Virus record (IMG/VR): IMGVR_UViG_3300022752_000027 | Coordinates: 59,736 to 123,735 of that record | DNA length: 64,000 nt | DNA from: a virus | Direction: 5' to 3' (one strand) | In this document: positions 30,389 to 55,270 of the stretch, piece after piece | How positions within the stretch are numbered: the stretch's first letter is position 1 | Layout of the letters: each line of letters starts with the position of its first letter | Program-made: the position numbers and the translations under genes | The notes under the pieces: model-generated | The model's database searches: none | Told to the model about the DNA's origin: nothing | What the model saw: only the letters and a program-made list of their open reading frames with translations

Positions 30389-30392
30389 ACTA

Positions 30393-31093: not shown

Positions 31094-34000
31094 TGAGAAG
31101 CATAGGTCTTACAGATGCAACTGGAAATAGTTACGGTTTCCCTAGAGTAACTGTATATGGTCCTGATGGTAAAATAAAGTTCCCAACAGGAGGGGGAGGA
31201 GGAGGTTCAGGTACAGTTACTTCTATAGGTATTACTGTACCATCTGGATTTAATGTTACCCCAAGTCTTATTACTACATCAGGTACCTTTGCCATAACTG
31301 GAGCTGGAACTACTGCTCAGTATATTGATGGTACAGGTGCATTGCAGACATTTCCATCAATACCTAGTTTTACTCCATCTGCCCTCACTAAAACAGATGA
31401 TACTAATGTGACCCTAACTCTTGGAGGTAGTCCTTCTGTAGCACTATTAGCCGCTACAAGTCTTACATTAGGTTGGACAGGTACACTTGCTACAGGTAGA
31501 GGTGGTACTGGACTTAGTAGTATTGGAACAGCTCTTCAATACCTTAGAGTAAATTCTGGCGCTACAGGATTAGAGTATGCTACATTTCCCACTATACCTA
31601 CGGTTAATCCTTCTGCATTAACTAAGACTGACGATACTAATGTAACTCTTACTTTAGGTGGTACCCCAGCAACATCTTTATTACAAGCTGTAAGTCTTAC
31701 CCTTGGCTGGACAGGTCAGTTATCAACTAGTCGTGGTGGTACTGGGTTATCTACAATAGGAACATCACTACAATACCTACGTGTAAATTCAGGAGGAACT
31801 GCATTAGAGTATGCTACCTTTCCTAGTACAAGTGGATTATTGCATGGTACAGCATCGGGCACAAATAACTATACTGTAACTATATCAGGAGTAACTGGTT
31901 ATGCAGATGGAGATGCCTACATTATTAAGTTTACTAATGGCAATGATGCAGACTCTGATATTAACATCAATGGTTTAGGGGTTAAAACTTTAGTAAAACA
32001 ATTTGATGTTCAGCTTACTGGGGGAGATATTGTATCAGGACAAGAGCTGATTATCATGTATGACGGTACTAATTTCCAAACTCTTGGAGTAGCACCTAAT
32101 CAGCTCTTTGCTTATGTAACTAATGATGATTCGGTTACTATAACTAAGGGTCAGCCAGTATATGCAGCTGGATCTGCTGGTAACAGGATGAGTGTTAAAC
32201 TTGCCTATAACACATCAGATACTACATCGGCACAGACCGTTGGTGTTGTATTTTCTACATCTATTGCCCCAAATCAAAGAGGGTTTATTATTACTCAAGG
32301 TGTTATATCTGGAGTAAATACAGCAGCATACTCAGCTGGTGCTCAGTTATATTTAGGTGCTACTGCGGGAACATTAACAGCTACTAAACCCTATGCCCCT
32401 AATCACCTTGTATATGTAGGTATTGTTGAAAGAGCAAATGCAGGTAATGGGCAGATATATGTCAAACCTCAGAATGGTTATGAACTAGATGAAATCCATG
32501 ATGTAGATCTAAAGAGTGTTGGGAATATTCCATCTAATAATGATATACTTACTTATATTACTGGGACAAATAATCTTTGGAAACCAAGAAGTATAGCAAC
32601 TATACTGGGATACACTCCTCAGGCACAGCTTAATGGAACCGGGTTTGTAAAAGCTAGTGGCACCACTATATCCTATGATAATAGTACTTATTATTTAGCA
32701 AGTAATCCAAGTAATTTTATCCCCCTTACTGCACTAAGTTCAACTGCAACAGGATTAACCTATACAAATACAACAGGTGTATTTAGTTTGACAAGTGGAT
32801 ATGTTATTCCTACTACATCTTCCGCAACCAATTGGGATACAGCATATACCAATCGAATTACTAGTTTAACAACAACTGGTTCCTCCGGTGCATCTACACT
32901 AAGTAGTAATACCCTAAATATTCCTAACTATACATTATCTGGACTAGGTGGCGTTCCAACATCAAGGCAATTAACTATTAATGGAACAACATATGATTTA
33001 TCAGCAGATAGATCCTGGACTATTTCCGCTGGTATAAGTTTGACTACTACAGGAACATCAGGAAATGCTACTCTTGTTTCAACTACATTAAATATCCCTA
33101 ACTATGGACTCAATGACTTAAGTCAGATATCAGTATCTACAAGTAATGCAAGAGAGGATAACTACGCACCAACAGGATGGCCAGGAACATCGGATAGAGT
33201 TAAAATAATTCGCATAGATTCTACTAACACCAACTACATGATGAGTCTTGGTGGATTGGCAAGTCCAACAGCTGGTAGAGTTGTAACTATTGTTAATGCA
33301 TCCGCAGCTAATAATCTAATTATTATTGAGAATCTATCCACTTCTTCTACAGCTGCTAATAGATTTAGGATGACCAGTAATATGGCCTATTTTTTACTTC
33401 CCACAAGAAGTATAACATTTATTTATGATGGTACATACTGGACACAGTTGTCAGCAAGTAATCCAATGGGATTAGATTTATTTGATGATTGCACAGGAGG
33501 ACCACAGAACTATGCCAATGGAGCAGTAGGAATAACTGCATCTATATCTAGTGGAACAAACTCTGGTATAAGGGCTGAAGGTGATTTATTTGGTTCTTTT
33601 GGACTATCTACAGGAACTACGGCAGCAGGAGGTGCTGCTATAACAACACAAGCAAGAAGAGCTGGAGCAAATAATGCATTTGCACTTAACTCTGATTATC
33701 CGTATTTAGTAGTTGGCAAATTAGCATTAATGCAGACGGCTACTGTAGCACAAGATTTTAAAGTTTGGTTTGGTATAAATGGAGATGGACCAACTGTATT
33801 AAATAATACTTTTAATCCAATAGGATATAATTGGTATTATAACGGCAGTAGTAGTTCTTTATGGGATAATAGAAGCCAAAATGCTGGAGGTACTGTATCT
33901 CAGGTAAGTAGTCCATTAACAGCTGCAGTTACATCTGTTGTATTAGGAGTATATAAACCAGGTGGAGCAAACATAAGGGATGCTGTATATTTCTACTCTA

Positions 34001-34155
34001 CTGACTATATCATATATCAAGTATCAACAAAATTTGTAGGGACAACTGGTAACTATGGTGGTAACATGGTTGGTCAAATATATTCAACTGCAGGAACAAC
34101 AGCCAAAGAACTTCGTTTTGATTATCATGGTGCATCAGTAAACTTAGTACGATGA
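31093..34155 (+). CDS. Tail fibre/appendage protein, 1020 aa
   Basis: Begins with a short anchor (MRSIGLTDATGNSYGFP, then a Gly run and GSGTVTS) followed by two copies of an 80-residue repeat (ALTKTDDTNVTLTLGG ... RGGTGL ... LQYLRVNSG ... EYATFP). RGGTGL and similar repeats are typical of phage tail fibres. The centre has long Ser/Thr/Asn-rich beta stretches, and the C-terminal about 230 residues look like a globular receptor-binding head (FDDCTGGPQNYANGAVG ... FKVWFGINGDGP). It probably contacts the host surface. Confidence 0.75.
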   Translation: MRSIGLTDATGNSYGFPRVTVYGPDGKIKFPTGGGGGGSGTVTSIGITVPSGFNVTPSLITTSGTFAITGAGTTAQYIDGTGALQTFPSIPSFTPSALTKTDDTNVTLTLGGSPSVALLAATSLTLGWTGTLATGRGGTGLSSIGTALQYLRVNSGATGLEYATFPTIPTVNPSALTKTDDTNVTLTLGGTPATSLLQAVSLTLGWTGQLSTSRGGTGLSTIGTSLQYLRVNSGGTALEYATFPSTSGLLHGTASGTNNYTVTISGVTGYADGDAYIIKFTNGNDADSDININGLGVKTLVKQFDVQLTGGDIVSGQELIIMYDGTNFQTLGVAPNQLFAYVTNDDSVTITKGQPVYAAGSAGNRMSVKLAYNTSDTTSAQTVGVVFSTSIAPNQRGFIITQGVISGVNTAAYSAGAQLYLGATAGTLTATKPYAPNHLVYVGIVERANAGNGQIYVKPQNGYELDEIHDVDLKSVGNIPSNNDILTYITGTNNLWKPRSIATILGYTPQAQLNGTGFVKASGTTISYDNSTYYLASNPSNFIPLTALSSTATGLTYTNTTGVFSLTSGYVIPTTSSATNWDTAYTNRITSLTTTGSSGASTLSSNTLNIPNYTLSGLGGVPTSRQLTINGTTYDLSADRSWTISAGISLTTTGTSGNATLVSTTLNIPNYGLNDLSQISVSTSNAREDNYAPTGWPGTSDRVKIIRIDSTNTNYMMSLGGLASPTAGRVVTIVNASAANNLIIIENLSTSSTAANRFRMTSNMAYFLLPTRSITFIYDGTYWTQLSASNPMGLDLFDDCTGGPQNYANGAVGITASISSGTNSGIRAEGDLFGSFGLSTGTTAAGGAAITTQARRAGANNAFALNSDYPYLVVGKLALMQTATVAQDFKVWFGINGDGPTVLNNTFNPIGYNWYYNGSSSSLWDNRSQNAGGTVSQVSSPLTAAVTSVVLGVYKPGGANIRDAVYFYSTDYIIYQVSTKFVGTTGNYGGNMVGQIYSTAGTTAKELRFDYHGASVNLVR
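31370..31849 (+). repeat. Two 240 bp tandem repeats inside the fibre gene
   Basis: The unit beginning ACTAAAACAGATGATACT (about 31388) recurs as ACTAAGACTGACGATACT (about 31621), and GGTGGTACTGGACTTAG recurs in the second copy. The period is about 240 bases or 80 codons. Silent changes between copies show age and selection on the protein. Confidence 0.65.
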
Positions 34156-34382
34156 GATATTACATATACGAAATACGTTTTGTGGATTATTTAGGTCAGC
34201 AATGTTTAGTATCAACTCCAGGAGCATGTGAAGATGCACTATTTGATCAAAATTTAGAAGAGATAAAAGCAATAGTTTTTACTCAGGCTAAAGCACTAAA
34301 TAATGATCAGGAGGTAATTGACTTTACATTCTCTATTACTGACATAACAAAGCCTATATATGATGACTTTGTAAACACTTAA
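34152..34382 (+). CDS. Hypothetical protein, 76 aa
   Basis: Small alpha/beta protein (YYIYEIRFVDYLGQQCLVS ... IKAIVFTQAKALNNDQEV). It overlaps the fibre gene by 4 bases, so it may be a fibre chaperone or attachment factor. Not recognised. Confidence 0.5.
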   Translation: MRYYIYEIRFVDYLGQQCLVSTPGACEDALFDQNLEEIKAIVFTQAKALNNDQEVIDFTFSITDITKPIYDDFVNT

Positions 34383-34457: not shown

Positions 34458-36719
34458 ATGTATAAAGCAATTTATTACAATTCTACGGCAATTTATAATA
34501 AGTATAAACTTGCTACAGGTGTTATTCAAGCACATGACCCTTTTAATATGGTTGTACTTGATACAGCAGATAAAACTCCTGGAACATCCACTGAAATTAA
34601 AAACACTTTTACCTTTTCAAGTCTAGATTCTATTCCAGCTAATAAGGCAATTATTAAAATACTTAGTGGATCAGAAAGTTCTTATGACATTGCCGTAGAG
34701 TATCTAAAAAATCAAAAGGTTACAGTTACAGATCAGTTTTATAATCTGGGTATTATTGTAGCCGAAATACCAAAAGGTAGTTATTCTAGTTTTGAATCTA
34801 AACTTAGTACTTGGCTTACCCCTTATGGTTTACAGTATGTAGAGCTAGACGTAGTACATACTATAGATCCAAATTATCAAATTCCATATAGTGAACACTG
34901 GCATCTAGGTAATATCCAAGCACAATGTGCCTGGGACGCTATGGATCCATATGCAGTAAATACAGATGACCCAATACCTGTAACTGCTCCAGGAGGAATT
35001 ACTTATGTTGGAGGTTGTAATCGTCCTGAAGTTGCTTTATTAGATGGGGGTGTTGAAATTAATCATCCCGATCTCATAGGCAGATTAAGTGGTGGCTGTA
35101 ATGTTAATCGCTTTGGCGAAAGTTCAACAAGTCTTAACTGGAATTGTGTAGATAATAACTCTAGTGTAATTCCAATTAATAGTTTTGATAATCATGGAAC
35201 AGCAATGGCAGGAGTTATTGCTGGAAATAATTTGAATTATCAATATAGTTTATCTGCATCTAATAACTATTTACGAGTTCAGGTTTTAAAGATAATGTAT
35301 CCGATAACAACCAATCAATATTATACAAGCTCTACTATACAGATATTGGCAATTAATAAGGCAGTTGCAAATCCTAATTGTGTAGCCATTAACATGTCTT
35401 TTGGAAGCACTGTTTACTCTAGTGCATTAGCAGATGCCATTTTGTATGCAAGAAATGTTGGTAGGGATTGTAAAGGTATTCCTTTATTTGCATCAGCAGG
35501 TAACTATTCACAGTCTAATCCTACTATTTATCCAGCATTGTATGACGGTGTATTACCAATTGCCGCATCTACTGCAGGAAATTTTAAAGCGTCATATTCA
35601 AATATGGGAGATTTTCTATTTGCAGCTGCACCTGGAGTTAATATCATAACTACAGATAGAGTTGGTGCAAATGGGTATTCTACTACAACAAGCTCAAACT
35701 CTACTACTCAGTATGATTCATATTACACAAATCTGGCTACATATAGATATTTTGGAGGTACGTCAGCATCTTGTGGAATTGCATCAGCAATAGCTGGTTG
35801 TATGGTTGCAGTAAATCCTAATATTACAGCAAATCAAATTGAAACTATATTAGCTGATACTGCTGCTCAGACAGGAGGTTATACATATGATCCTAAATCA
35901 AATGAGCTTGGTTATGGGGTATTAAGAATGTGTGATGCTATTCAAAGTGTTATTGATTCACTTCCTGATCAGTTACCTACTATTGATATTTCAACAGAAG
36001 TTACTAGTGGCGCTATTGCTTCAACAACATGTAGTAATATTGGTGTAACGACAACTGTTACAATTAATGAAGGAACCTCAGCTAATATTACTAATATGAC
36101 ACTTGATTACTATGCTTCAAACAGTAGTGCTGCAAATCCTAATATGATTTGGTTATACCAATCTTCATATACCACAGAATCAATAGGAAATTCTGCATAT
36201 ACCAATGATGAGTTTTATGTATCAAATATTCCAGCATTATATAATCCATCAGCATATCCATATCTTATTATAAGATATACTTTTTATGATGCATGCGGTC
36301 ATATTATCTCAGATGGTGAAACAGAAGTAACAGCAATGGTTCCAATGACTCTTACACAAGGTTGTGTAGCAACTGATGCAGCAGTAGAAATTATTAGTTA
36401 TGAGCTTGCTACTGGTGCTAACAATTCAATTCAAAGAAGATTTACTGTAAGATACACCAATACTGGAACAGTGCCAATTACAAACATTTATGTTAAAAGA
36501 GGATGGGTAGGAGGAGCTTATGCTTATCAGGCCATATCAGGATCAAATCTTTCTACTACTGGTGTACTGAATCCGGGTCAAACTAGAACTGCTGTTATTA
36601 CATTTAATCAGCCAGTTCCAGCTTTACCTGCTACTTATTACACACAAATTCTTACTGTAAATGGCAATTCAGATAGTAATCCTGGAAATAATTATGCTTC
36701 CTTTACTATAACTGCATAA
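34458..36719 (+). CDS. Subtilisin-like serine protease 1 (S8), 753 aa
   Basis: S8 protease with a full triad: Asp196 in VALLDGGVEINHPDL, His246 in DNHGTAMAG and Ser436 in GGTSASC. The oxyanion Asn is in FASAGNYSQ. An N-terminal prodomain-like part (about residues 1-145, with HDPFNMVVLD) precedes it and two Ig/CARDB-like beta domains follow (about 520-753, ending in VNGNSDSNPGNNYA). There is no signal peptide. It is the first of six tandem relatives and has a longer leader. It probably acts on host surface or fibre proteins in the virion or after lysis; this is inference. Confidence 0.85.
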   Translation: MYKAIYYNSTAIYNKYKLATGVIQAHDPFNMVVLDTADKTPGTSTEIKNTFTFSSLDSIPANKAIIKILSGSESSYDIAVEYLKNQKVTVTDQFYNLGIIVAEIPKGSYSSFESKLSTWLTPYGLQYVELDVVHTIDPNYQIPYSEHWHLGNIQAQCAWDAMDPYAVNTDDPIPVTAPGGITYVGGCNRPEVALLDGGVEINHPDLIGRLSGGCNVNRFGESSTSLNWNCVDNNSSVIPINSFDNHGTAMAGVIAGNNLNYQYSLSASNNYLRVQVLKIMYPITTNQYYTSSTIQILAINKAVANPNCVAINMSFGSTVYSSALADAILYARNVGRDCKGIPLFASAGNYSQSNPTIYPALYDGVLPIAASTAGNFKASYSNMGDFLFAAAPGVNIITTDRVGANGYSTTTSSNSTTQYDSYYTNLATYRYFGGTSASCGIASAIAGCMVAVNPNITANQIETILADTAAQTGGYTYDPKSNELGYGVLRMCDAIQSVIDSLPDQLPTIDISTEVTSGAIASTTCSNIGVTTTVTINEGTSANITNMTLDYYASNSSAANPNMIWLYQSSYTTESIGNSAYTNDEFYVSNIPALYNPSAYPYLIIRYTFYDACGHIISDGETEVTAMVPMTLTQGCVATDAAVEIISYELATGANNSIQRRFTVRYTNTGTVPITNIYVKRGWVGGAYAYQAISGSNLSTTGVLNPGQTRTAVITFNQPVPALPATYYTQILTVNGNSDSNPGNNYASFTITA

Positions 36720-36749
36720 AAATTAGTATTTTTATATCATAATCTAACA

Positions 36750-36778
36750 CGGTAGGTCCTAGATAACTTCTAGGACTT
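36750..36778 (+). terminator. Hairpin between proteases 1 and 2
   Basis: GTCCTAG (36756-36762) pairs with CTAGGAC (36770-36776) around a 7-base loop. The U tract after it is weak. It may end part of the transcript of protease 1 or act as an attenuator before proteases 2-6. Confidence 0.45.
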
Positions 36779-36802
36779 ACTTGTGTTATAAAAATAATAA
36801 TC

Positions 36803-38854
36803 ATGAGCAAAATCAACTCTGTTAAATTCAAAGACAAGAAGTCATTTGATAAAAACAAAACAAAGCCTAATGTGCTTGCAATACATGAACCTTTTGGAAT
36901 CATTATCTTTAAAGATGACAATGAGGTAGTTCCCGATACTGCTAAAGTATCCCAAACCAATACAGTAGACGCATCCTTAGATCAGATTTCTACAGGTCTT
37001 GCCATTCTTATTGCTCATGACTATAATGAGGGGTTGGCTTATCTTAAATCTGCAAATGTTGTTATTAAAGAATCATTTGAATTAACCAAAACCTTTTTTA
37101 CCGAAGTTCCTGATTTTATTCCATTTGATTCTTTTTACGGTAGTATCATGTCTACTGGATTGTTTATCAGTGTAGAACCTGATTATATTGTCCCAATGCA
37201 GACAACTGCAGAAACTCCATATACAGGTCATTGGCATTTAGGTGATATGAAATGTGCTGAGGCTTGGACCTTACTTCCTGATGGAGTAGTTAAAGAAGTG
37301 GCCGTACTTGATATTGGTTGCGAAACTACACATGAAGATTTAGCAGGTATGATTAGTTCTACATCTTGGAACTGTGTTACAGATGCCCCAGATGTAAATC
37401 CTATTAGTGAATATGAAAAGCATGGTACATGTTGCTCAGGTGTAATTGCAGCAAATACTGGAAATGATATTGGCTGTAAATCAATCGGTAACAATCACCT
37501 TAAAGTACAGTTCCTACATATTGGCTATAACAGTTCAAGTACGGGAAGTTTTTCTACCTCAGATACTATATGCACAAGAGCAATAAATAAAGCTATTGCT
37601 AACCCTAATTGTGTTGCTGTTTCAATGTCATGGGGAGGAGGTAGCGCATATCCAATATTCAGTAATGCATTAAATAATGCTAGAACAATAGCAAGAGGTG
37701 GAAAAGGTATTCCAATTTTTGCTAGTTCTGGTAATCAAAACAATGCTAACTTTAATCAATTTCCAGCAGCATATCCGGCTGTAATGGCTGTAGGAGCAAC
37801 TACAAGCACTAATACAAGAGCAAGTTTTAGTAACTATGGTCCACTTTTGTATGCCTCTGCTCCAGGTGTAAGCCTCTGGACAGTAGATCGTACAGGTGCT
37901 GCAGGATATGGTCCAGATTCGTATAAAGGATTTTCAGGTACCTCAGCATCTTGTCCAGCAATGGCAGCAGTAGCAGGTTGTATACTTGTGAAGAATGAAA
38001 ATCTTACTGAGGTACAGGTTCGTGACATTATAAAAAATTCCTGCAGAAAACTGGGAGGCTATGTTTATGATTCAACTGGAAAATCCCTAGAACTTGGATG
38101 GGGAATTGTAGATATGTACTCTGCAATTTCATTGGCTGGTGGTACTAATCCTGGTGAACCTACGCCTGGACCTACATATAATATTTTTGGGACTATATCA
38201 TCTCAAGCAACAATCGAACAAGGACAAATTGCTAACATAACTTATTCAGTTATTTCAGATAAAGCAATGACCCAAGATACAGCTGTAGGTGTAAACATAG
38301 CATTTAAAAAACCTGATGGCTCAAGTTTAAACTTCTATTCTGGAAACATAACTATTAGTGCTGACCAGACTACAAAGTCTATGAATATTCCATTTACAGT
38401 TCCTAATACAATCAGCGGTCCATGCCAGTTTATAATGACCGTAGATCCAAATAATTTTGTACAGGAAACAAATGAAAATGATAATGTAGCATTTACGTCT
38501 ATTAATGTAACTCAAATGCCTACACCAACTAATGGTGTTGATGGTGAGATTACAATTACTGGCTATGAATGGGTTGATGCAACAAGGGTTAGAATTAGAT
38601 ATATGCTTACTAATAGAGGCACAACCACTATAACATCTTGGAAAGCAGTAGTTGGTTTTGATGGAATGTCACAGATTACTTGGAATAGAAATGATGTAAT
38701 TGCACCTGGAAAGTATGGTGCCTTTGGTTCTGTATTTAGTAGTAATTTATATGGTACTCTTCCAAATACATTTAGAATCAACGTTACCCAGGTAAATGGA
38801 GTACCGGATTCAAATATTTCTAACAATACTGCATCTATTTTAGTATCTTATTAA
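36803..38854 (+). CDS. Subtilisin-like serine protease 2 (S8), 683 aa
   Basis: Triad Asp170 (AVLDIGCETTHEDL), His207 (EKHGTCCSG) and Ser381 (FSGTSASCP). Oxyanion Asn in FASSGNQN. The N-terminus MSKINSVKFKDKKSFDKNK is basic and shared with proteases 5 and 6. C-terminal Ig-like repeats carry NFVQETNENDN and end VNGVPDSNISNNTAS, a CARDB-like pattern. No signal peptide. It follows a hairpin and opens the dense part of the array. Confidence 0.85.
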   Translation: MSKINSVKFKDKKSFDKNKTKPNVLAIHEPFGIIIFKDDNEVVPDTAKVSQTNTVDASLDQISTGLAILIAHDYNEGLAYLKSANVVIKESFELTKTFFTEVPDFIPFDSFYGSIMSTGLFISVEPDYIVPMQTTAETPYTGHWHLGDMKCAEAWTLLPDGVVKEVAVLDIGCETTHEDLAGMISSTSWNCVTDAPDVNPISEYEKHGTCCSGVIAANTGNDIGCKSIGNNHLKVQFLHIGYNSSSTGSFSTSDTICTRAINKAIANPNCVAVSMSWGGGSAYPIFSNALNNARTIARGGKGIPIFASSGNQNNANFNQFPAAYPAVMAVGATTSTNTRASFSNYGPLLYASAPGVSLWTVDRTGAAGYGPDSYKGFSGTSASCPAMAAVAGCILVKNENLTEVQVRDIIKNSCRKLGGYVYDSTGKSLELGWGIVDMYSAISLAGGTNPGEPTPGPTYNIFGTISSQATIEQGQIANITYSVISDKAMTQDTAVGVNIAFKKPDGSSLNFYSGNITISADQTTKSMNIPFTVPNTISGPCQFIMTVDPNNFVQETNENDNVAFTSINVTQMPTPTNGVDGEITITGYEWVDATRVRIRYMLTNRGTTTITSWKAVVGFDGMSQITWNRNDVIAPGKYGAFGSVFSSNLYGTLPNTFRINVTQVNGVPDSNISNNTASILVSY

Positions 38855-38871
38855 TAGTAAAAAATTAAAAC

Positions 38872-41130
38872 ATGTTCTATTCAATAGTATTCTCAACACA
38901 AAAAGCTTTATTAACAGCTGCTAAGTTACCTGGTGTGCATTCTGTGCACACACCATTACAAATGATCATTTTTGAAGGATCTGTTCCTTCAAAACTTGAC
39001 CCTAAAACAGTAATTTATATATCGGAGCCATATGCCGGAATTGAAGAGGCTAAAACAGGACTAGTAATTTTTACTGCGGCAACTAATAAATTTTTAGATT
39101 TAGTAAACTACCTGAAGAAATCAGCAGTACTTGTTTTAGATACTTTTCCAGAAACAAATATTATCATTACCAGAATGCCTACAATGACAACGTGGACTAA
39201 GTTTAATGCTAAACTTGCCAAAGAAGCATCGTCATTAATTGGATTTGTAGAAGAGGATTTAACATTTAATGTTGTTCCAGATTCTCCAGATTATGCATAT
39301 GGAAATTATACATATGAGCAACATGGTTGGTTAAATTCAATAAATGCAGGAGATTCGTATTCAATGATTTCTGCACTTTCTGGTGAAAAACATGTTGCTA
39401 TTTTTGATTCATCATTTGATATTAACCATCCTGATTTAGTTGGCAGATCTGCATTTAACTGGAACTGTGTTGATAATAATTCAAATGTAGATGTTATTGC
39501 AGGAGATCCATATTATAATTCTTCTTTGGGTCAAATGGATTTTGCATATCCTCAGCATGCTACTGCAATGGCAGGTATTGTTGCGGCAAACTCTACAAAT
39601 GGAATTCTTGTACAGTCTAATACTTTAAATAAAGTAAAGGCACAAGTATTAAAAGTACTTTATCCATATAATATTAATACCCCCACACCAACTATTATCT
39701 ATAACACAACAAATTCTGCGTTGATTCGTGGATTTAATCGTGCTATGTTAAATAATTCTTGTGCGGCAATAAGTATAGCATGGACAGGCTCAGCATTTAC
39801 ATCACAAGTATATAGTGTAATGAATTATGTACTTCAGAGTGCTAGAAATTGTAAAGGTATTCCAATCTTTGTATCTGCAGGTAATGTGCCAACTGACCAA
39901 ATTAATTATTTTCCAGCTGCCTATGGACAAAGCACAAAACTATGCACGATAAGTGGGACATGTTGCGGAACAATAGACCGTGAAAATTCACTAATTGCAT
40001 CATTTTCTAGTTTTGGTATTAATGTTTTTATAGCAGCTCCAGCAGTACAGGTTTTAACAACAGATGTTAGTGGAACATACGGATATTCCTATTCATCAGA
40101 CCCTAGTGTAAATGCTGTAACATATTTCAATGGAACATCGGCATCTGCACCAATTGTTGCTGGAGTAGCAGCATTAATGTCTTTAGTAAATTCAGGTTTA
40201 AGTGTAACAGATATTAGAACAATTTTAAAAAATAGTGCATTGCAAGTCAATCCAGGAACTGCAGAAGGAGAATATAATTATTCAGGAGTTGGTGGCTTTT
40301 TTGATACTGGAGGTAGTAAATCTAATGAGTTGGGATATGGTTTACTTGATCAATATTCTGCACTAATAGGTGCTGCTGCATTTGTACCAGCAACTGGAGG
40401 ATCTGATTTAAGTTTTTCTGAAATTGATATTCCAGATACAATTTATGCTGGAGATACAATTACTGTAAGTTTTGGAATTGATATTGATCCTGGATTTATC
40501 TATCAAGCAACAGGGTGCTCATCTAATAGTATTAAAGTTGCATTTTATAGTTCATCGACTCCGTATTATACGACTGCCAATTGCCCATTGATTTATGAAA
40601 CTACAGTTTATCCAGAACTTGGGGATACTTCAATTTCTAGTACATTCCCCTACACTGTACCATGTAATGCAACTGGTGATGTTTACATTATTGGAAATGT
40701 AGATTATGCAGAGTTATATCATGAAGGTGATGAAACTAATAATATTGGCGTTAGTAATTCAATGACTATAAATGGAATTTTAGCGCCTTGTCAGATTACT
40801 GATTTATCCGTAAGCATTATTTCAAGTTCATTACAGACAAATGGGTATAGATCATTTGTAGTTAGATTTACTAATACAGGAAATACTAATATTACTACTT
40901 TTAACTGGACAAGAGGTTGGTTAAATTCTCCAACTGGATCTCAAACAACAGGTACGTATAACTTTTCAGCAAGTACTCCACTGTTACCAGGAGCGTCAAG
41001 AAATGTTTCTGTAACATGGGCACAGTATGCGGCATCTTTCCCAGCTACTTGGTTTGCAAGAATTAATACTGTAAATGGTGCGCCAGATGCTGTTATAAGC
41101 AATAATACATCAACAATTGAAGTAAACTAA
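38872..41130 (+). CDS. Subtilisin-like serine protease 3 (S8), 752 aa
   Basis: Triad Asp179 (VAIFDSSFDINHPDL), His229 (YPQHATAMAG, with Ala replacing the usual Gly after His) and Ser423 (FNGTSASAP). Oxyanion Asn in FVSAGNVP. It has an insertion with several Cys (KLCTISGTCCGTIDREN) before the Ser motif. The C-terminal domains end VNGAPDAVISNNTSTIEV. It is the most divergent around the His, so activity should be checked. No signal peptide. Confidence 0.82.
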   Translation: MFYSIVFSTQKALLTAAKLPGVHSVHTPLQMIIFEGSVPSKLDPKTVIYISEPYAGIEEAKTGLVIFTAATNKFLDLVNYLKKSAVLVLDTFPETNIIITRMPTMTTWTKFNAKLAKEASSLIGFVEEDLTFNVVPDSPDYAYGNYTYEQHGWLNSINAGDSYSMISALSGEKHVAIFDSSFDINHPDLVGRSAFNWNCVDNNSNVDVIAGDPYYNSSLGQMDFAYPQHATAMAGIVAANSTNGILVQSNTLNKVKAQVLKVLYPYNINTPTPTIIYNTTNSALIRGFNRAMLNNSCAAISIAWTGSAFTSQVYSVMNYVLQSARNCKGIPIFVSAGNVPTDQINYFPAAYGQSTKLCTISGTCCGTIDRENSLIASFSSFGINVFIAAPAVQVLTTDVSGTYGYSYSSDPSVNAVTYFNGTSASAPIVAGVAALMSLVNSGLSVTDIRTILKNSALQVNPGTAEGEYNYSGVGGFFDTGGSKSNELGYGLLDQYSALIGAAAFVPATGGSDLSFSEIDIPDTIYAGDTITVSFGIDIDPGFIYQATGCSSNSIKVAFYSSSTPYYTTANCPLIYETTVYPELGDTSISSTFPYTVPCNATGDVYIIGNVDYAELYHEGDETNNIGVSNSMTINGILAPCQITDLSVSIISSSLQTNGYRSFVVRFTNTGNTNITTFNWTRGWLNSPTGSQTTGTYNFSASTPLLPGASRNVSVTWAQYAASFPATWFARINTVNGAPDAVISNNTSTIEVN

Positions 41131-41144
41131 TACTATTCATTGGA

Positions 41145-43601
41145 ATGATAAACGCAGTAACATATAAAACAGGTGCTTTATATAAAAAAGCATTAGCTGA
41201 TAAGAATATTTTACAGACACATGAGCCGTTTAATATCATAGTATATGATGACCCGTCTCCTGTAAAAAGGGATATGACGACTATTCGTAGAATTACTGAG
41301 GTTGATGATATTACTAAAGTTCCAACTGGATTAGCGTTATTAAAAGTTAATTGTGATCTTTTTGAAACTCGCTTAGATCCGGATTATCGAATTAATATGG
41401 ACCTTAAATATGAGGCTGAAAAAATCCTAAAAGAAAATAATGTAAAAGTTATTGATACAATACCACTTACATTTGGATATATTGTAGAAATACCTTCTAA
41501 TTTATCTTTTACAAAATTTACTGAAAAAATTAATAAAACATATAATGATCAAAATATTTTTTTAGTAATTGAGGAAGATGTAATTTTTGATGCACAGTCT
41601 TGTGATTACTATGCATGGCCTGATAGTTCTCAATGGCATCTTAAAGATATTCAAGCAAATCAAGCATATGCACTATTAGATCAAGGTGGCTATAACTCAG
41701 AAGATGGTACTACATATGGAGAATGGTATACCAGAGACGTAGCAATTATTGATGGTACAGGTTTTGAACTTAGTCATCCAGATTTATATAATACTGATTA
41801 TCCAGTAGACCATCCTGGTCGTGTTATGACTAGAGAAAACTGGGATTGTGTAAACAATAATAGTAATCCTCAACCAAGTGGTCCAAATGATAAACATGGT
41901 ACCGTCATGGCAGGAATAGCTGCATCAGGATGGGCAGATAGAAGATTTTTAAAAGGTGTTGGTTTAGATCATATTAATGCACAATGTCTTAGAATAGGAT
42001 ATAATGTTGGAATAAATGGTGCATTTTCAACATCAACCACTTTTGTAATAAGGGCTTTAAATAAAGCAATATTAAATACTAACTGTGCGGCAATTGCAAT
42101 GCCATATTCGCATGGAGGATTTTCAGTATTTACTAATATTATGCTAAATAATATTAGATATTTTAGTAGATTTGGAAAAGGAATGTTGGTTTTTGCTGCT
42201 TCTGGAAATAGTGGAGCAAGTAGTATTTCTAATGTTTATCCAGCAGCATATGATAATGTATTAGCTATAGGCGCTAGTACTGTAAGTCATTCAAGAGCTT
42301 CTTTTTCAAACTATGGTTCTGATTTATTTGCAACTGCTCCAGGAGCTTCAATTTTTGCAATTGACCGCTGCTGTAGTAGGGGATATAATATAAATCCAGA
42401 CCCCACCTATGGGTCAGTGACATATTTTAGCGGTACATCTGCATCTGCAGTCATTGCAGCTACTATAGCCGCTACAATGGTTGTGGCAAATCCTGATATT
42501 ACTGCACTACAGATTAAAACAATATTAGAAATTACTGCCAGAAGAATTGGTCCATATACTTATTATTCTACAAGTAATGAGATTGGATTTAATCTCAGTA
42601 CTAATCCTGAAATGGGTAATGGTATTCTAACCCAAGCTACTGCAGTACAAAAAGCACTTGAATATGCTTCAGTAAATCAAACCGCATATTTAAATTATGC
42701 GATAGATACTTTAAGTTTTTCTCAAGGTGACTTTGACAATGGTTTACAGGTTGCAACAGGTAGTGCTGTTCAATGGTTAATGGATATTAGTATTACAAAT
42801 GATTCTCCAGAACCCTTACCAGTAAGTGTAAATACTATTAATGTAAGAGTTTCAGTAACATTAGAAACTGATGGCCCAACACCAACTGCAAGTACACCAA
42901 TGATGCCTCTTTCTAATACTGCCTATATTTATGGACCACAAGATGTCGTGGTTCTTCCTGGAGAAACTATAACAAGGACTGTTACATGCCAGAGTGGAGG
43001 TTTAGAAAGATACAGTTGTCTTTTAGAGGGTAATTATTATTTTGTTGCTAAAATTGATAGTGCCGATTATGTTGTAGAAACAAGTGAAGAAGATAATATT
43101 GTATATATTCCTGTAGAATATATATATACTGAAGGTAGCATTGGATATTGTTCTCAAACCTGTGATCCTACTCAATACCCAGATGTGCAAATAAGAATTG
43201 ATTATTTAACAGTACAAAGGTTGGATCAAGCACTTCCTGCCCCATATACTGGATATTTTTGGAAAATAAAAGCAAGATTTACAAACTTAGACACCATAAA
43301 TGCAAATAGTTTTTGGGTAAGATATAACTGGAATCCAAGTATAATAAGTGGAGTATGGGAACAATGGGTTTTTGAGAACTCTTCGTTTATAAATGATGAT
43401 AATCTTGTACCATATGCCCCACAGTTTCAAATGCTTACACCTTTACTACCAGGAGAATCAAGATATATAGAAAAAATTATTGGATATCCACCATTACAAT
43501 ATCCTGCTATAATGACAGCTGTTGTTGCTATAGTTAATACATGGCCAGTAAATAATATTCAACCAATACATTTTACACAATCGGCTATAATATATCAATA
43601 A
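41145..43601 (+). CDS. Subtilisin-like serine protease 4 (S8), 818 aa
   Basis: The longest of the six. Triad Asp203 (VAIIDGTGFELSHPDL), His251 (DKHGTVMAG) and Ser432 (FSGTSASAV). Oxyanion Asn in FAASGNSG. The N-terminal part has HEPFNIIVYDD. C-terminal CARDB-like domains contain NYYFVAKIDSADYVVETSEE. The last domain differs from the others, ending with HFTQSAIIYQ. Its TAA overlaps the ATG of protease 5. Confidence 0.83.
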   Translation: MINAVTYKTGALYKKALADKNILQTHEPFNIIVYDDPSPVKRDMTTIRRITEVDDITKVPTGLALLKVNCDLFETRLDPDYRINMDLKYEAEKILKENNVKVIDTIPLTFGYIVEIPSNLSFTKFTEKINKTYNDQNIFLVIEEDVIFDAQSCDYYAWPDSSQWHLKDIQANQAYALLDQGGYNSEDGTTYGEWYTRDVAIIDGTGFELSHPDLYNTDYPVDHPGRVMTRENWDCVNNNSNPQPSGPNDKHGTVMAGIAASGWADRRFLKGVGLDHINAQCLRIGYNVGINGAFSTSTTFVIRALNKAILNTNCAAIAMPYSHGGFSVFTNIMLNNIRYFSRFGKGMLVFAASGNSGASSISNVYPAAYDNVLAIGASTVSHSRASFSNYGSDLFATAPGASIFAIDRCCSRGYNINPDPTYGSVTYFSGTSASAVIAATIAATMVVANPDITALQIKTILEITARRIGPYTYYSTSNEIGFNLSTNPEMGNGILTQATAVQKALEYASVNQTAYLNYAIDTLSFSQGDFDNGLQVATGSAVQWLMDISITNDSPEPLPVSVNTINVRVSVTLETDGPTPTASTPMMPLSNTAYIYGPQDVVVLPGETITRTVTCQSGGLERYSCLLEGNYYFVAKIDSADYVVETSEEDNIVYIPVEYIYTEGSIGYCSQTCDPTQYPDVQIRIDYLTVQRLDQALPAPYTGYFWKIKARFTNLDTINANSFWVRYNWNPSIISGVWEQWVFENSSFINDDNLVPYAPQFQMLTPLLPGESRYIEKIIGYPPLQYPAIMTAVVAIVNTWPVNNIQPIHFTQSAIIYQ

Positions 43602-45685
43602 TGATGAAAACAATAAATTCTGTAAAGTTTAAAAGTCAAAGTACTTTTGAAAAGACTAAAGTAAAATCTAATGTTTTACAGGTTCACGAGCCTTTTAATA
43701 TTGTTGTATTTGAAGATGATGCTCATGTAGATCCTGATTTTTCAAAAGTAAAACAAACTAATAAGGTTTCCGATCTAAAAGAAATACCTTCAGGTTTAGC
43801 TACGGCAATTGCATTTGACTATAAAAAAGCAAAGAAATTTTTAAAAGATTCTAATATTGACATAGTAAATGATTTTGAGTTAACTAAAACATTTATTATA
43901 GATATTCCGGATCATACGGCTTTTGAGGATTTTAGAACTCTTGTAATTGGATCAAATCTATTTGCCTCAGTTGTTGAGGATAAGATTATAGAGAGTAAAT
44001 CAAACTTGACAAACTATCCATATTCCGCACACTGGTGGTTAGGTAATATTAATGCATCTTCTGCTTGGTCACAATTAACTGCGCCAGGTTTAGTTGATGT
44101 TGCTGTAATTGACGGAACGGGTTGTGAGGTATCACATCCTGATTTAGTTGGAAAAACAAACCTGAACTGGAACTGCGTAGCTAATAATAGTAATGTAAGT
44201 CCTGTTTCTGATAATGAAAAACACGGTACTCCATGTGCCGGAATTATTGCAGCTAACTGTGCAAACAATGAGCTTGTATTATCTGTTGGAAATGATAAAG
44301 TAAGAGTACAGTTCCTAAAAGTAGGGTATAACCACACATCTACAGGCTCTTGGAATACATCAGATGCAATTTTAACAATGGCTGTAAATAAGGCAATTGC
44401 AAATACAAATTGTGTTGCAATATCAATGTCTTTTTACACTTCTATTTCTGGAGGATTTAAATCAGCATTAACAAGTGCTAAAGTATCAGGTAGAGGGGGA
44501 AAAGGAATGCCTTTGTTTGCATCTTCAGGTAATGATGGTGCATCATCAGTTACTCAAGCTCCTGCTGCATGGCCAGAAGTAATGGCTATTGGTGCATCTA
44601 ATAGTACTAATACTAGATCATCTTTTTCAAATTATGGAACTAGTCTTTTTGCAGCAGCTCCAGGATCATCAGTGCTTACTACAGATAGAACTGGCGGAAA
44701 AGGCTATTCTATAAATGTAGACCCTACTTTAGATGCTGTAACTTACTTTAGTGGTACTTCAGCTGCCTGTCCTGTTATGGCCGGTGTAGCTGGTACAATG
44801 ATTCTTGCAAATCCTAATTTAACAGAATCTCAAGTAAGAACAATACTTGCACAGACAAGTAGAAAACTTGGCGGCTATAACTATACTAGTGGCAAATCCC
44901 TAGAATTAGGATATGGCATTGTTGATCAAAACGCTGCAGTTGCAGCTGCTATTGCAGCAACTACAGTAGTACCGGATGTTCCAAACATCAGCATGATAAT
45001 GTCAGCACAAGGTACTGCTGTACAGGGAAGCATAATTCCAATTAACTATACTGTAAATTTATCTACTGCACAAACTAGTGCCTTAACACTAAGAGTATCA
45101 TTTTATAGATCGTTGAATACTATTCTTGAAGCTAATGATACATTGATTCAAACAGAAGTAATTACAGTACCAGCAAGTACTACCATGTATACTTCTGGCT
45201 TTAATTATACTGTTCCAACTAACATAGTTGGAAATCTATATGTTATTGGTTTTGTGGACAGTACGAATATTGTTTCTGAGCCAATTGAAACTGATAATAC
45301 AGCAAGTGTCGTAATTAATGTAGTTACTACAGGTCCAGTACCATCAAATAGTGGTTTAGATTTATCTGTGCAGCTTATTCAAACTAGATATGCTACCAAT
45401 GGAAAACTTTATGTAAAACAAAAGTTTACTAATGTCGGTTCAGTTGCAATCACAAGTTATAAATTTGTGAGGGGATTTATTGGTGGCACACAGCAAACTA
45501 AACAGATTAATAATGTCAATATGCAACCTGGACAATCTGTAACAAGTGAAACTGTTTGGAGTAACTATCCTCCAGCATATCCAGCAACTTATAAGATAAC
45601 TATAACAGAAGTAAATGGAGTAGTTGATTCAGTTGCCACAAATAATGTTAGTACAATTCAAGTAAATGAGAATGTTGCGCTATGA
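43601..45685 (+). CDS. Subtilisin-like serine protease 5 (S8), 694 aa
   Basis: Triad Asp171 (VAVIDGTGCEVSHPDL), His208 (EKHGTPCAG) and Ser387 (FSGTSAACP). Oxyanion Asn in FASSGNDG. N-terminal MMKTINSVKFKSQSTFEKTK and HEPFNIVVFED closely match proteases 2 and 6. C-terminal beta domains end VNGVVDSVATNNVSTIQV. It is joined by ATG/stop overlaps to both neighbours, so the array is translated as an operon. Confidence 0.85.
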   Translation: MMKTINSVKFKSQSTFEKTKVKSNVLQVHEPFNIVVFEDDAHVDPDFSKVKQTNKVSDLKEIPSGLATAIAFDYKKAKKFLKDSNIDIVNDFELTKTFIIDIPDHTAFEDFRTLVIGSNLFASVVEDKIIESKSNLTNYPYSAHWWLGNINASSAWSQLTAPGLVDVAVIDGTGCEVSHPDLVGKTNLNWNCVANNSNVSPVSDNEKHGTPCAGIIAANCANNELVLSVGNDKVRVQFLKVGYNHTSTGSWNTSDAILTMAVNKAIANTNCVAISMSFYTSISGGFKSALTSAKVSGRGGKGMPLFASSGNDGASSVTQAPAAWPEVMAIGASNSTNTRSSFSNYGTSLFAAAPGSSVLTTDRTGGKGYSINVDPTLDAVTYFSGTSAACPVMAGVAGTMILANPNLTESQVRTILAQTSRKLGGYNYTSGKSLELGYGIVDQNAAVAAAIAATTVVPDVPNISMIMSAQGTAVQGSIIPINYTVNLSTAQTSALTLRVSFYRSLNTILEANDTLIQTEVITVPASTTMYTSGFNYTVPTNIVGNLYVIGFVDSTNIVSEPIETDNTASVVINVVTTGPVPSNSGLDLSVQLIQTRYATNGKLYVKQKFTNVGSVAITSYKFVRGFIGGTQQTKQINNVNMQPGQSVTSETVWSNYPPAYPATYKITITEVNGVVDSVATNNVSTIQVNENVAL

Positions 45686-47781
45686 AACTAAATGCCGTAA
45701 AATTTAAAGATCGTAAAGCCTTTGATAAGAATAAATCAAAGGCAAATGTTGCTGCTTTCTACGATCAGCACAATGTAATTGTCTTTAAAGATAAAGCATA
45801 TGTAAAACCAGATAAGGTAAAAGTTTCTCACGTTGAACAAATTTTAGATGTTAAATATGGTGTACCGACCAGTATTGCCATACTTAAACCATCAAATTAT
45901 CACATAGGTTTAGGCATTTGCGAAAAAATGAATTTAAAAATTATAAATTCATATCCGCAAACAAGGACAATCATAGTTGAAATTCCTGAGCATATGTCAT
46001 ATACAAAATTTTATGAAACAGTTTTTAGTGCTGGATCATTTGATTTTATTGAACAGGATATAATTACTCAATTTGGAACTCATGCAAATTTTGCCTATAA
46101 CGACCATTGGCAATTAATTGCTATGAATGCTCAGGAAGGATGGAATATTATTGCACAAAATCCTCCAGTACAAAATAATATTGTAACAGTAATAGATATT
46201 GGATGTGAAACAACGCACCCAGATTTAACTGGTCAAGTAATTAATACACTTAATACTGTAACAAATACAACAGATGTTTTACCTTCATCACAGTATGATA
46301 ATCACGGAACTTGTTGTACAGGATTAATTGTTGCAAATCCAACTAATGGAATTAATACAATAGGTGTGGCAGGTCCATATACTAAAGCAAGTTTTGTAAA
46401 TCTTGCCGTTATGGATAATCCCCATACATTTTCAACAAGCACAACACAAAAAGTGCAGGCTATTAATCATGCCATTAGTATGCCTAACTGTGTTGCAATT
46501 TCTATGTCTTTTGGTGGAGGCAACATTGAACAAGCATTTGAAGATGCTCTTGTTGAGGCACAACAGATCGGAAGAGGAGGTAAAGGAATAGTTTGTTGCG
46601 CATCATCTGGTAATCAAGGATTATTTAATGATGTTCAATATCCTGCTTATTATCAAGGTGTTTGTAGTATAGGTGCACTTGATTTTAATGACTTTGATTA
46701 TAAAAAAGCAAGTTATTCTAACTACGGTGTAGAATTATTTGCTGCAGCTCCTGGATCATATACACCAACTACAGATAGAAGTGGTTCAGCAGGATATTCA
46801 CTAGACAATACTACTTATTTTAGCGGTACATCAGCCGCATGTCCTGTATTTGCTGGTGCTGTTGCTGCAATAGCAGCAGCATCTCCTAATCTAACAGCGG
46901 AACAAATAAAAAATATAATTAGAGAAAGTTGTGTCCAAATAGGTGGATATAATTATAACGGCAATCCTGTTTATCCAAACAGATCGTATGAAACAGGTTA
47001 TGGAATGATTAGTATTGAAAATGCTGTTGCTCTTGCTGTTGGCGGAACTGTTTCACCAGATCCAACAATTCCTATAAATGTTCGTGTTACTGTAAGTACT
47101 GTATCATTATCATTTCCAAATAGCACAGTGCCACTTACATATACAATTATATGTAATAAGGTTTTACAAACAGACACTAATATTTCAGTTACTATTTTTA
47201 AATCTGCTAATAATTCACCTGTTTTAGAACCGGCAGATACAGTACTTACCACATTAACTATTACTATTCCTGCTGGTCAATATCGTTATCAGGGATCTTA
47301 TGATTTTGTAGTAGATAATTCCTGGATAGGTTTAACTTATATAGGTGTTTATGCGGCATCATTGCCAGGAGAAACATTTACTGTTGATAATTATGGATTT
47401 AGAGCAATTCAAGTAATAGGTGAAAGTGCTCCACCAAACTTAAATTTAAAGGCCAGAATTCAAAAAATTACTCTAAATTCTGATTTTACAAAAGCTATTG
47501 TTTATTTTGATATTCAAAATACAGGTTTAACACCAGTAACAAGATTTACAATTAAAAAAGGATTTGTTGGGTATGAGGAGTATGTTTATGAAGTAATTTA
47601 TGATCTTCAAACTGATAAATATTATGTTGAAGAAACAGCATGGGAATTACTTCCTCCTCCAAATTTCTTGTATAGCACACCCTTTAAAATTGAAATTACT
47701 TCTGTAAATGGAATTTTCCCTGATGATGTAACAACAGATAATAGTGCATCTTATAACATAATTCCATCAGTTAATCCTTAA
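45682..47781 (+). CDS. Subtilisin-like serine protease 6 (S8), 699 aa
   Basis: Triad Asp172 (VTVIDIGCETTHPDL), His208 (DNHGTCCTG) and Ser384 (FSGTSAACP). Oxyanion Asn in CASSGNQG. The N-terminus MKLNAVKFKDRKAFDKNK is again shared, but the HEPF motif is YDQHNVIVFKD. The NWNC segment of the other members is missing. The C-terminus has CARDB-like repeats and ends VNGIFPDDVTTDNSAS. Its ATG overlaps the stop of protease 5. Confidence 0.85.
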   Translation: MKLNAVKFKDRKAFDKNKSKANVAAFYDQHNVIVFKDKAYVKPDKVKVSHVEQILDVKYGVPTSIAILKPSNYHIGLGICEKMNLKIINSYPQTRTIIVEIPEHMSYTKFYETVFSAGSFDFIEQDIITQFGTHANFAYNDHWQLIAMNAQEGWNIIAQNPPVQNNIVTVIDIGCETTHPDLTGQVINTLNTVTNTTDVLPSSQYDNHGTCCTGLIVANPTNGINTIGVAGPYTKASFVNLAVMDNPHTFSTSTTQKVQAINHAISMPNCVAISMSFGGGNIEQAFEDALVEAQQIGRGGKGIVCCASSGNQGLFNDVQYPAYYQGVCSIGALDFNDFDYKKASYSNYGVELFAAAPGSYTPTTDRSGSAGYSLDNTTYFSGTSAACPVFAGAVAAIAAASPNLTAEQIKNIIRESCVQIGGYNYNGNPVYPNRSYETGYGMISIENAVALAVGGTVSPDPTIPINVRVTVSTVSLSFPNSTVPLTYTIICNKVLQTDTNISVTIFKSANNSPVLEPADTVLTTLTITIPAGQYRYQGSYDFVVDNSWIGLTYIGVYAASLPGETFTVDNYGFRAIQVIGESAPPNLNLKARIQKITLNSDFTKAIVYFDIQNTGLTPVTRFTIKKGFVGYEEYVYEVIYDLQTDKYYVEETAWELLPPPNFLYSTPFKIEITSVNGIFPDDVTTDNSASYNIIPSVNP

Positions 47782-47786: not shown

Positions 47787-48155
47787 ATGAAAAAATTTCT
47801 ATACTACTTACAGAAATATGATGGTATATGGAGTATACCATTAGCATTCATGGGTTTTTTTCTAGCTGGCCAATACAGCTTTGAATACTTTGGGGATGCA
47901 ATTATCTCTACAGAATACCTACAATTTGCAGTACTCACATCATTAATTATGGTATTTGCTAATTTTGTAGTATTCTTAGGTATTAACTTTAACTTTAGAA
48001 GTCTTCAGAGATACTTCTACTCAAAAGAAATCAAATATGACATACAAGCTAATCTAACAACATGGCAAAGAATAAAGTTATACTTATTAGTCTACTTTGG
48101 ATTTTTATTCATCTTCCTCTTTATTCTATATTTGCTAATGACGGTTACTGCGTAA
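47787..48155 (+). CDS. Membrane protein, possible holin, 122 aa
   Basis: Three hydrophobic helices (about residues 15-32, 46-67, 97-119) with basic loops. It lies directly before a peptidoglycan-hydrolase-like gene and overlaps it by 94 bases, so a holin or lysis-control role is likely. The size is normal for holins, but no family is recognised. Confidence 0.5.
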   Translation: MKKFLYYLQKYDGIWSIPLAFMGFFLAGQYSFEYFGDAIISTEYLQFAVLTSLIMVFANFVVFLGINFNFRSLQRYFYSKEIKYDIQANLTTWQRIKLYLLVYFGFLFIFLFILYLLMTVTA

Positions 48156-48643
48156 GGGTAACAGCATCAAGTTATGTTGGAGTAAGAGAGAAGGGAGGTA
48201 ATAACCAGGGGTTTACTAAATGGGATTTTAGGCAACTTATGGTAGAAAATGGATGGAAACCAGGTAATGCGTGGTGCGCATATTTTGTAAAAGCAATGCT
48301 TAATGAATGTGGAGTACCTAATAATATTACTGGTTGGTCTCCAACAGCTTACAATAAGAATGACGTAATCTTTACTGACGGTAAATTTTATAAGTCTTTT
48401 AATGATGGTGATGTACTAGTTATGACTTTAAGTTATCCAGATAAGTATGGAACAACTAGATATAAAGCTATAGGGCATACAGGAATAGTAGATAAAATTG
48501 GTCAGTATTCTATAAGGACAATAGAGGGGAACACTAATGAACAGGGTATGAGAGATAGCAGAACTACTGACGGAGTATATTATAAAATCAGACCATTAAC
48601 TAAAAAATTACATATTACAAGATGGGCAAAACATCAAAACTAG
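48062..48643 (+). CDS. Endolysin, CHAP-like amidase with signal peptide
   Basis: The N-terminal hydrophobic stretch (VILISLLWIFIHLPLYSIFA, about residues 5-24) looks like a signal peptide. The catalytic part has GNAWCAYFVKAMLNECGVP (Cys nucleophile, about residues 73-91) and GHTGIVDKIGQ (His, about 139-149), the Cys-His arrangement of CHAP/NlpC-type peptidoglycan hydrolases. TIEGNTNEQG follows, as in such amidases. It would cut the host wall at lysis after Sec export. It overlaps the possible holin and the spanin genes. Confidence 0.75.
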   Translation: MAKNKVILISLLWIFIHLPLYSIFANDGYCVRVTASSYVGVREKGGNNQGFTKWDFRQLMVENGWKPGNAWCAYFVKAMLNECGVPNNITGWSPTAYNKNDVIFTDGKFYKSFNDGDVLVMTLSYPDKYGTTRYKAIGHTGIVDKIGQYSIRTIEGNTNEQGMRDSRTTDGVYYKIRPLTKKLHITRWAKHQN

Positions 48644-49044
48644 GAAAAATAGGGGTTATACTAGCAGTAGTTATTATACTACTATCTATATTCTTTAGTA
48701 TTAAAACTTGTACTAAAAAACCAGTAACTAATCCAGCTGTTGATAGACTGCATGAAATAAACGATAGTTTATATGAAGTCATTGAAGAAAATAACCGAAT
48801 AGCAAATGATCTTTACAATAAATTGGATTCTATAACAATTATATCGGATACAATTATTCAACGTCAAGAGATTACCAATAAATACTATAAAAATGAAGTT
48901 TATAACATTCTTAGCAGTAATGATGCTGATGCCAATACTCAGTTTAGGGCAACCCTCAAAAAGTCAGACTCCCTCCTTAAAAGTGGATTCTACTCCAAAA
49001 CTTACGACTTACGATCTTCAGCTAATGAATCTAAACTTCACTAG
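48622..49044 (+). CDS. Inner-membrane spanin (Rz-like), putative
   Basis: One N-terminal transmembrane helix (about residues 10-28) followed by a coiled coil (LHEINDSLYEVIEENNRIAN...), the layout of an i-spanin. It overlaps the endolysin gene by 22 bases and the next gene by 152 bases in another frame, just as Rz/Rz1 pairs often do. It would connect inner and outer membranes during lysis. Confidence 0.6.
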   Translation: MGKTSKLGKIGVILAVVIILLSIFFSIKTCTKKPVTNPAVDRLHEINDSLYEVIEENNRIANDLYNKLDSITIISDTIIQRQEITNKYYKNEVYNILSSNDADANTQFRATLKKSDSLLKSGFYSKTYDLRSSANESKLH

Positions 49045-49336
49045 TATGTACTATTGGTACAACACGGCAATGGAAATTGATTCAGTGTACCAGCTAGAGA
49101 AGTTAAAGACACACTACTATTCTAAGATTACTGGCATTCAAGCTGATAGCTATCAGACCTTGCAGGAAATCTATGATAATAAGCAAGCTATTGAAAAAGC
49201 AATAGCGCAAGAAAAGGAGATGCAGATAAAAGACCTAAAGAAAAAAAACAGACGGCTTATATTCCAAAATGTTGGATTATCTGTTGGTGTTGCATGTCTT
49301 TCACTTACAACAATTTATTTTGCAATTGTTCCATAA
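48893..49336 (+). CDS. Overlapping second lysis protein with signal peptide, 147 aa
   Basis: Starts inside the spanin gene in a different frame. Signal peptide MKFITFLAVMMLMPILSLGQ, then a coiled-coil middle and a C-terminal membrane helix (VGLSVGVACLSLTTIYFAI). It may be the partner spanin, but it lacks a lipobox and carries a C-terminal membrane segment, so it differs from classical Rz1. Confidence 0.55.
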   Translation: MKFITFLAVMMLMPILSLGQPSKSQTPSLKVDSTPKLTTYDLQLMNLNFTSMYYWYNTAMEIDSVYQLEKLKTHYYSKITGIQADSYQTLQEIYDNKQAIEKAIAQEKEMQIKDLKKKNRRLIFQNVGLSVGVACLSLTTIYFAIVP

Positions 49337-55156: not shown

Positions 55157-55181
55157 AATTACTAAAATACTTTTTAATGCA

Positions 55182-55210: not shown

Positions 55211-55217
55211 ATAACTC

Positions 55218-55247: not shown

Positions 55248-55258
55248 TGTTATAATTT

Positions 55259-55266: not shown

Positions 55267-55270
55267 AGTT

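Follow-up and report, generated by a model that had tools for sequence, protein, structure and literature searches.

A distant crAss-like phage with a genome of 123.7 kb carries six tandem, intact genes for subtilisin-like (S8) proteases, and this array has arisen by expansion from a phage gene that is widespread as a single copy. The array lies at positions 34458-47781 of the window, the 64,000-nucleotide stretch of viral DNA analysed here. An initial annotation of the window had reported the six genes, and every one of the ORFs is present where it was placed. Their products (P1-P6, 683-818 aa) score 87-126 bits for Peptidase_S8 (PF00082), whose cut-off is 21.8 (E 1.3e-24 to 2.6e-36), and all six also fall in PHROG 3677, 'protease'. 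The catalytic triad and oxyanion Asn claimed for them are borne out by a six-way alignment, in which the columns D196, H246, N349 and S436 (P1 numbering) are invariant; the same D/H/N/S set is kept in 53 of 53 aligned family members. The genes take up 13.3 kb, which is 21% of the window and 11% of the genome, and the 123,735-bp record holds no further S8 genes elsewhere. The array and its neighbours are as follows.

31093..34155, + strand: tail fibre gene, 5' of the array; weak Phage_depo_C match; common to relatives.
34152..34382, + strand: 76-aa ORF in the fibre-P1 interval; homologue at the equivalent place in L144.
34458..36719, + strand: P1, S8 protease, 753 aa; PF00082 E 5.1e-28; orthologue L142:3685-5979, 43% aa identity.
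36748..36789, + strand: RNA hairpin in the P1-P2 gap; -26 kcal/mol, z -8.4; homologue L142:6005-6047, z -6.7.
36803..38854, + strand: P2, S8 protease, 683 aa; PF00082 E 2.6e-36; placed in the tree; AF2 pLDDT 86.9.
38872..41130, + strand: P3, S8 protease, 752 aa; PF00082 E 1.3e-24; placed in the tree.
41145..43601, + strand: P4, S8 protease, 818 aa; PF00082 E 2.3e-27; orthologue L142:8209-10725, 45%.
43601..45685, + strand: P5, S8 protease, 694 aa; PF00082 E 4.4e-33; orthologue L142:10734-12800, 79%.
45682..47781, + strand: P6, S8 protease, 699 aa; PF00082 E 4.1e-30; orthologues in L142 (68%) and L141/L065.
47787..48155, + strand: membrane protein, holin-like by position; constant S8 neighbour in crAss-like relatives.
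48062..48643, + strand: CHAP-domain endolysin (PF05257 E 2.9e-6; PHROG endolysin) with a signal-like hydrophobic stretch at its N terminus (hydrophobicity).
48622..49336, + strand: two overlapping ORFs (140 and 147 aa), both membrane-associated and in a spanin-like arrangement; weak Rz-like match, E 0.019.

The genes are closely packed: P5 and P6 overlap by 4 nt, P4 and P5 by 1 nt, and otherwise the gaps are short. The array sits between fibre and lysis genes as first described, with the refinement that the 76-aa ORF separates the fibre gene from P1. Directly 3' of P6 come the transmembrane (TM) protein and then the CHAP endolysin. The gap between P1 and P2 (83 nt) contains the strong RNA hairpin, which occurs once per genome and is found again in IMGVR_UViG_3300034198_005091 (G001), a second contig with an S8 array; there it has -26.7 kcal/mol, the loop is altered, and A-U is replaced by G-C in at least one compensatory change. 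The hairpin may separate the expression of P1 from that of P2-P6 and the lysis genes. Promoter-like matches were no better than those in shuffled sequence and were ignored.

The window is the right-hand part of its 123,735-base IMG/VR record. The first 126 bases of the record recur at its end with the last three bases differing, and the contig, though classed as linear, probably closes. The major capsid protein matches Crass_capsid (PF23898, E 1.1e-31), and the large terminase subunit (TerL) and portal match phrog_6681 and phrog_6547, respectively. Annotated relatives of TerL are gut crAss-like and Flavobacterium phages, at ~25% identity. Judged by these matches, which give it a capsid, terminase and portal of crAss type, the phage is a member of the Crassvirales; its host is inferred to be a member of the Bacteroidota. 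An ORF at 55885 looks IHF-like by inspection.

A profile scan of IMG/VR recovered 51 loci with full-length or partial relatives of the S8 proteins, and later scans brought the family to 96 distinct proteins, 88 of them of at least 600 aa. Counted over whole contigs, the window genome has six S8 genes, G001 five and G026 two, most other S8-bearing records have one, and 20 terminase-related records, five of them 109-122 kb long, have none. Near-complete crAss-like relatives without any S8 gene have terminases 68-78% identical to that of the window genome. In loci flanked on each side by 2.2 kb or more, the S8 set is single in 35 cases, double in two, and numbers five and six genes in one case each. 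The array in G001 comprises orthologues of P1, P2, P4, P5 and P6 in the same order, with P3 missing. A search for further P1-, P3- or P4-type genes found this second array only, and P3, which has the longest branch in the tree, occurs in the window genome alone.

The tree points to a stepwise history. P2 clusters with the single copies, to which it is 51-77% identical, and is on this evidence the ancestral copy, orthologous to the single-copy phage gene. P6 groups with the second copy of the two-copy phage G026; L265 likewise has a second S8 copy. The simplest history suggested by these groupings would lead from P2 to P2 plus P6 and on to the larger array, the placement of the long-branched P1, P3 and P4 being uncertain by the tree program's own warning. 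The paralogues are only 28-45% identical to each other, which, with the absence of long direct repeats beyond conserved motifs, rules out recent tandem amplification. With copy numbers of 0, 1, 2, 5 and 6 and paralogues this diverged, the amplification is not transient.

The array has changed much faster than the core of the genome. Between the window genome and G001, TerL, portal and exonuclease are 94-96% identical and the genes from 55536 to the portal 90-96%, whereas identity falls to 43-79% for the S8 proteins, 41-70% for the fibres and 58-80% for the lysis genes. This divergence, far above that of the core, suggests that the array evolves with, and behaves like part of, the host-interaction block. 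Within the S8 proteins conservation is in most pairs highest in the catalytic core and lowest in the C-terminal part (74 vs 51% in P2, 58 vs 26% in P4), P5 being the exception. The catalytic domain is under strong purifying selection in close single-copy pairs (omega about 0.01-0.08); between the two arrays dS is ~1.1-1.4, near saturation, and dN/dS was left uninterpreted there. The strand that lines the substrate pocket, the S125-G127 region of subtilisin, reads SMSWGGG in P2, and the single copies are similar. P1 (NMSFGST), P3 (SIAWTGS), P4 (AMPYSHG) and P5 (SMSFYTS) deviate from it. The different pocket strands are consistent with, though not proof of, different specificities.

The same architecture, a propeptide-like N-domain followed by the S8 domain and two beta-sandwiches, recurs across the 88 distinct near-full-length proteins. 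The AlphaFold model of P2 (mean pLDDT 86.9, pTM 0.53, so that the domain arrangement is uncertain) has an N-domain of ~135 aa, an S8 domain at ~140-445 and a C-terminal all-beta part, which we read in the model as two beta-sandwiches; the C-terminal domains are weakly CARDB-like. The N-domain ends in a VEPD/VEED-like motif and is predicted to contain two beta-alpha-beta units, with no match to Pfam I9. A fold search with the P2 model found furin/Kex2 and subtilisins, and the best solved relative by sequence is mirolase of Tannerella forsythia (PDB 8ehe). A hydropathy scan (not SignalP) found no convincing N-terminal leader in the 53 aligned phage members; the same scan did find one in the neighbouring phage CHAP endolysin. 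The top cellular match, on a Flavobacteriales MAG contig (L148) where it adjoins a PurL-like gene, covers the N-domain too and starts with a hydrophobic leader. Since the phage members are leaderless and this homologue is not, the family looks, from sequence, like a secreted Bacteroidota-type subtilase zymogen that has lost its export signal.

The S8 genes occur in three genomic settings. In crAss-like phages one, two, five or six of them follow the fibre genes and precede the TM gene, the CHAP gene and two spanin-like ORFs; in another group of phages the order is TM, CHAP, S8. The third setting is siphovirus-like, a class identified by portal PF04860 together with XkdF PF14550, and runs tape measure, XkdF, S8, scaffold-like, capsid-like and portal genes, with TM and CHAP further on. 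In 41 distinct siphovirus-like loci the XkdF and S8 genes share exactly 4 nt, which points to coupled translation. The siphovirus-like contigs L242 and L246 keep this order of tape measure, XkdF, scaffold, capsid and portal genes without S8, which makes S8 accessory in these phages; it fails as a required member of the head gene set, given a separate XkdF alongside it and two contigs that do without it. In S8-free phages of the first two settings, an unrelated protein of 352-369 aa often lies directly upstream of TM-CHAP, or just downstream of it on the other strand. This ~360-aa protein was found in 29 loci, S8 in 132 and both together in none; several of these loci stem from a single contig or from contigs nearly identical to each other. 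No significant match to the protein turned up in Pfam, PHROG, PDB-sequence or fold searches (model pLDDT 71.5); with no identifiable fold, it offers no functional clue.

The reading we prefer, though tentatively and with slightly less than even confidence, is that P1-P6 are late proteases which are carried by the particle and attack proteins of the host surface from outside the cell. The late-placed proteins would fold in the host cytoplasm as zymogens inhibited by their propeptides, would travel on or with the particle (or, alternatively, be set free at lysis), and would become active once outside the cell. The activated enzymes would then cut Bacteroidota surface proteins that hinder adsorption or entry, with the C-terminal beta-sandwich domains binding the target. 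With six copies the phage would have several distinct specificities of cleavage or binding, much as phages with more than one tail-fibre or depolymerase gene do where sugars are the target. This reading is favoured by the intact fold and catalytic residues, by the lack of a signal-like segment, and by the ties of S8 to structural genes, namely the XkdF overlap and the surrounding tape measure, scaffold-like, capsid-like and portal genes. It is also favoured by divergence in step with the fibres, by a core that is mostly better conserved than the C-terminal part and is under purifying selection, by the differing pocket strands, and by the range of copy numbers with diverged paralogues. Against it, S8 in crAss-like loci has the TM/CHAP lysis pair as its nearest constant partner, an arrangement that would suit a role in lysis equally well; in addition, the C-terminal domains resemble CARDB only weakly, and P5 departs from the pattern of conserved core and variable tail. 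The initial annotation had placed the array in a virion block; it does adjoin fibre genes, but this is one of two readings, with S8 tied to the lysis pair in crAss-like phages and to head genes in siphovirus-like ones.

A role in lysis is somewhat unlikely overall. The proteins would be late and cytoplasmic, released or activated once the CHAP endolysin has opened the cell, and would digest the surface protein layer, matrix, debris or receptors on debris so that the progeny disperse. S8 genes touch the TM-CHAP pair in crAss-like loci and follow it directly in another group, their products lack a signal peptide, and five near-complete S8-free relatives also lack TM-CHAP (in the 20 kb examined). 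However, in the siphovirus-like lineage S8 is tied to XkdF and the head genes and lies several genes from TM-CHAP, the TM-CHAP pair occurs without S8 in many phages, and lysis has no obvious need for six specificities.

Adjacency to fibre genes (in the window, L141 and L144) and, in siphovirus-like phages, to head genes could also mean that the proteases process the phage's own fibre, tail or capsid proteins during assembly. We consider such maturation improbable, because siphovirus-like phages already own a head protease in XkdF, L242 and L246 keep the head gene order with S8 absent, the near-complete crAss-like relatives lack S8 altogether, and six copies would be redundant. The action on fibres that the initial annotation had listed among possible roles is likewise less likely, since S8-free relatives have fibre genes. 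Ejected or cytoplasmic proteases working inside the host, for example on defence or other host proteins, would explain the missing export signal, and several diverged copies would suit several targets. This is very improbable, as the genes are in a structural/lysis position and not in an early block, the catalytic domain has its nearest relatives among secreted extracellular subtilases (such as mirolase and subtilisins), and beta-sandwich domains of extracellular type are retained. That the array is an assembly artefact or a host region joined to the contig, the outcome that the initial annotation had named as fatal to it, can be dismissed with near certainty, because the window belongs to a crAss-like phage genome that probably closes on itself, with a 126-nt terminal repeat and a Crass_capsid gene, single copies occur in many phage contigs, and G001 holds an independent orthologous five-gene array with shared flanks.

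The preferred reading, host-surface proteases carried by the particle, can be extended to the ~360-aa protein. One particle might bear up to six subtilases of different specificity that strip different Bacteroidota protein coats, and the slot beside TM-CHAP might be a general exchange site for surface-attack modules, elsewhere filled by the unrelated protein; we regard this extension as rather doubtful. Most known phage enzymes directed at the host surface act on sugars or peptidoglycan. Six diverged subtilases in one crAss-like phage make the digestion of protein layers testable in Bacteroidota phages, which would matter for host range in a phage order that is dominant yet poorly represented in culture, and the family is a large set of natural S8 specificities.

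P1-P6 share their catalytic fold, triad and oxyanion Asn with peptidase family S8A (mirolase, subtilisin BPN', furin/Kex2), and the combination of protease and beta-sandwich resembles that of furin/Kex2. They differ from S8A members in having no signal peptide, a propeptide-like N-domain of ~135 aa and two C-terminal beta-sandwiches, and in being encoded among structural and lysis genes. The closest database entry, UniProt A0A6J5R7S5 ('Peptidase S8/S53 domain containing protein', uncultured Caudovirales phage, BFVD), has 683 aa like P2 and is 53% identical to it over the full chain; it belongs to the same family, as a single entry known from prediction. Bacillus phage vB_BcoS-136, Synechococcus phage ACG-2014e and Agrobacterium phage Atu_ph07 also encode S8 folds, but these subtilase-like proteins are distant (11-25% identical in the fold search). 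Multi-gene tailspike and depolymerase arrays similarly bring together several paralogous surface-degrading enzymes, which would broaden the surfaces attacked. The targets of those enzymes are polysaccharides and their presence in the virion is proven, whereas P1-P6 are predicted proteases known here from their genes. Among 50,697 phage records none matched P2 or P5 over 80% of the query, a near-identity search of annotated phages returned no match to the array, and a literature search (phage subtilases, virion-associated proteases, S8 in crAss-like phages) brought up no account of an S8 array or of what the family does. Single phage S8 proteins are already known from databases; what is new is the six-gene array, along with its variation in copy number and its exchange slot.

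The S8 gene and the lysis pair of a membrane-protein and a CHAP endolysin gene (TM-CHAP; loci L031, L017 and similar ones) are common to crAss-like and siphovirus-like phages, and the portal families of these two sets of carriers differ. That phages with different portal families have S8 and TM-CHAP in common points to exchange among phage groups whose hosts are related. Elsewhere the S8 position is held by another protein:

L235:4658-5764, L250:3962-5068, L238:10635-11702 and about 26 further loci: non-S8 protein family, 352-369 aa, next to TM-CHAP

This protein is unrelated to S8, co-occurs with it in none of the loci examined, and was assigned to no known family by Pfam, PHROGs and PDB searches.

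A further gene differs in its placement among relatives:

Window 29723-30421, minus strand: PhoH-like ATPase gene

Since its ~90% identical counterpart in relatives (locus L144, 17132-17794) lies directly 5' of TerL on the opposite strand, the gene has changed both place and orientation between genomes.

Two hairpin-bearing segments are shared by the array phages, the second being the other S8-array genome, G001:

Window 36745-36789: very stable RNA hairpin, P1-P2 gap
L142:6005-6047 (G001 array locus): its counterpart
Window 55181-55270: terminator-like hairpin, then AAGTTTAAACTT and TTGTGTTATAAT, 5' of gene 55271; counterpart near L143 2839-2928

The P1-P2 hairpin is kept in both phages with a compensatory base-pair change between them. 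In G001, S8 genes two and three are also separated by a strong hairpin (L142 ~8150-8195). The segment before gene 55271, almost unchanged between the two, resembles a phage promoter signal.

Other ORFs adjoin structural genes of the window's own genome (locus L003) or follow the CHAP gene:

L003:472-10485: giant ORF, 3338 aa, adjoining structural genes
L003:10488-16217: giant ORF, 1910 aa, adjoining structural genes
Window 48622-49336: two overlapping membrane-associated ORFs downstream of CHAP

A Pfam scan of the 3338-aa ORF alone gave no match. The overlapping pair, with a single weak Rz-like match, has the arrangement of an inner/outer spanin pair in a Bacteroidota phage.
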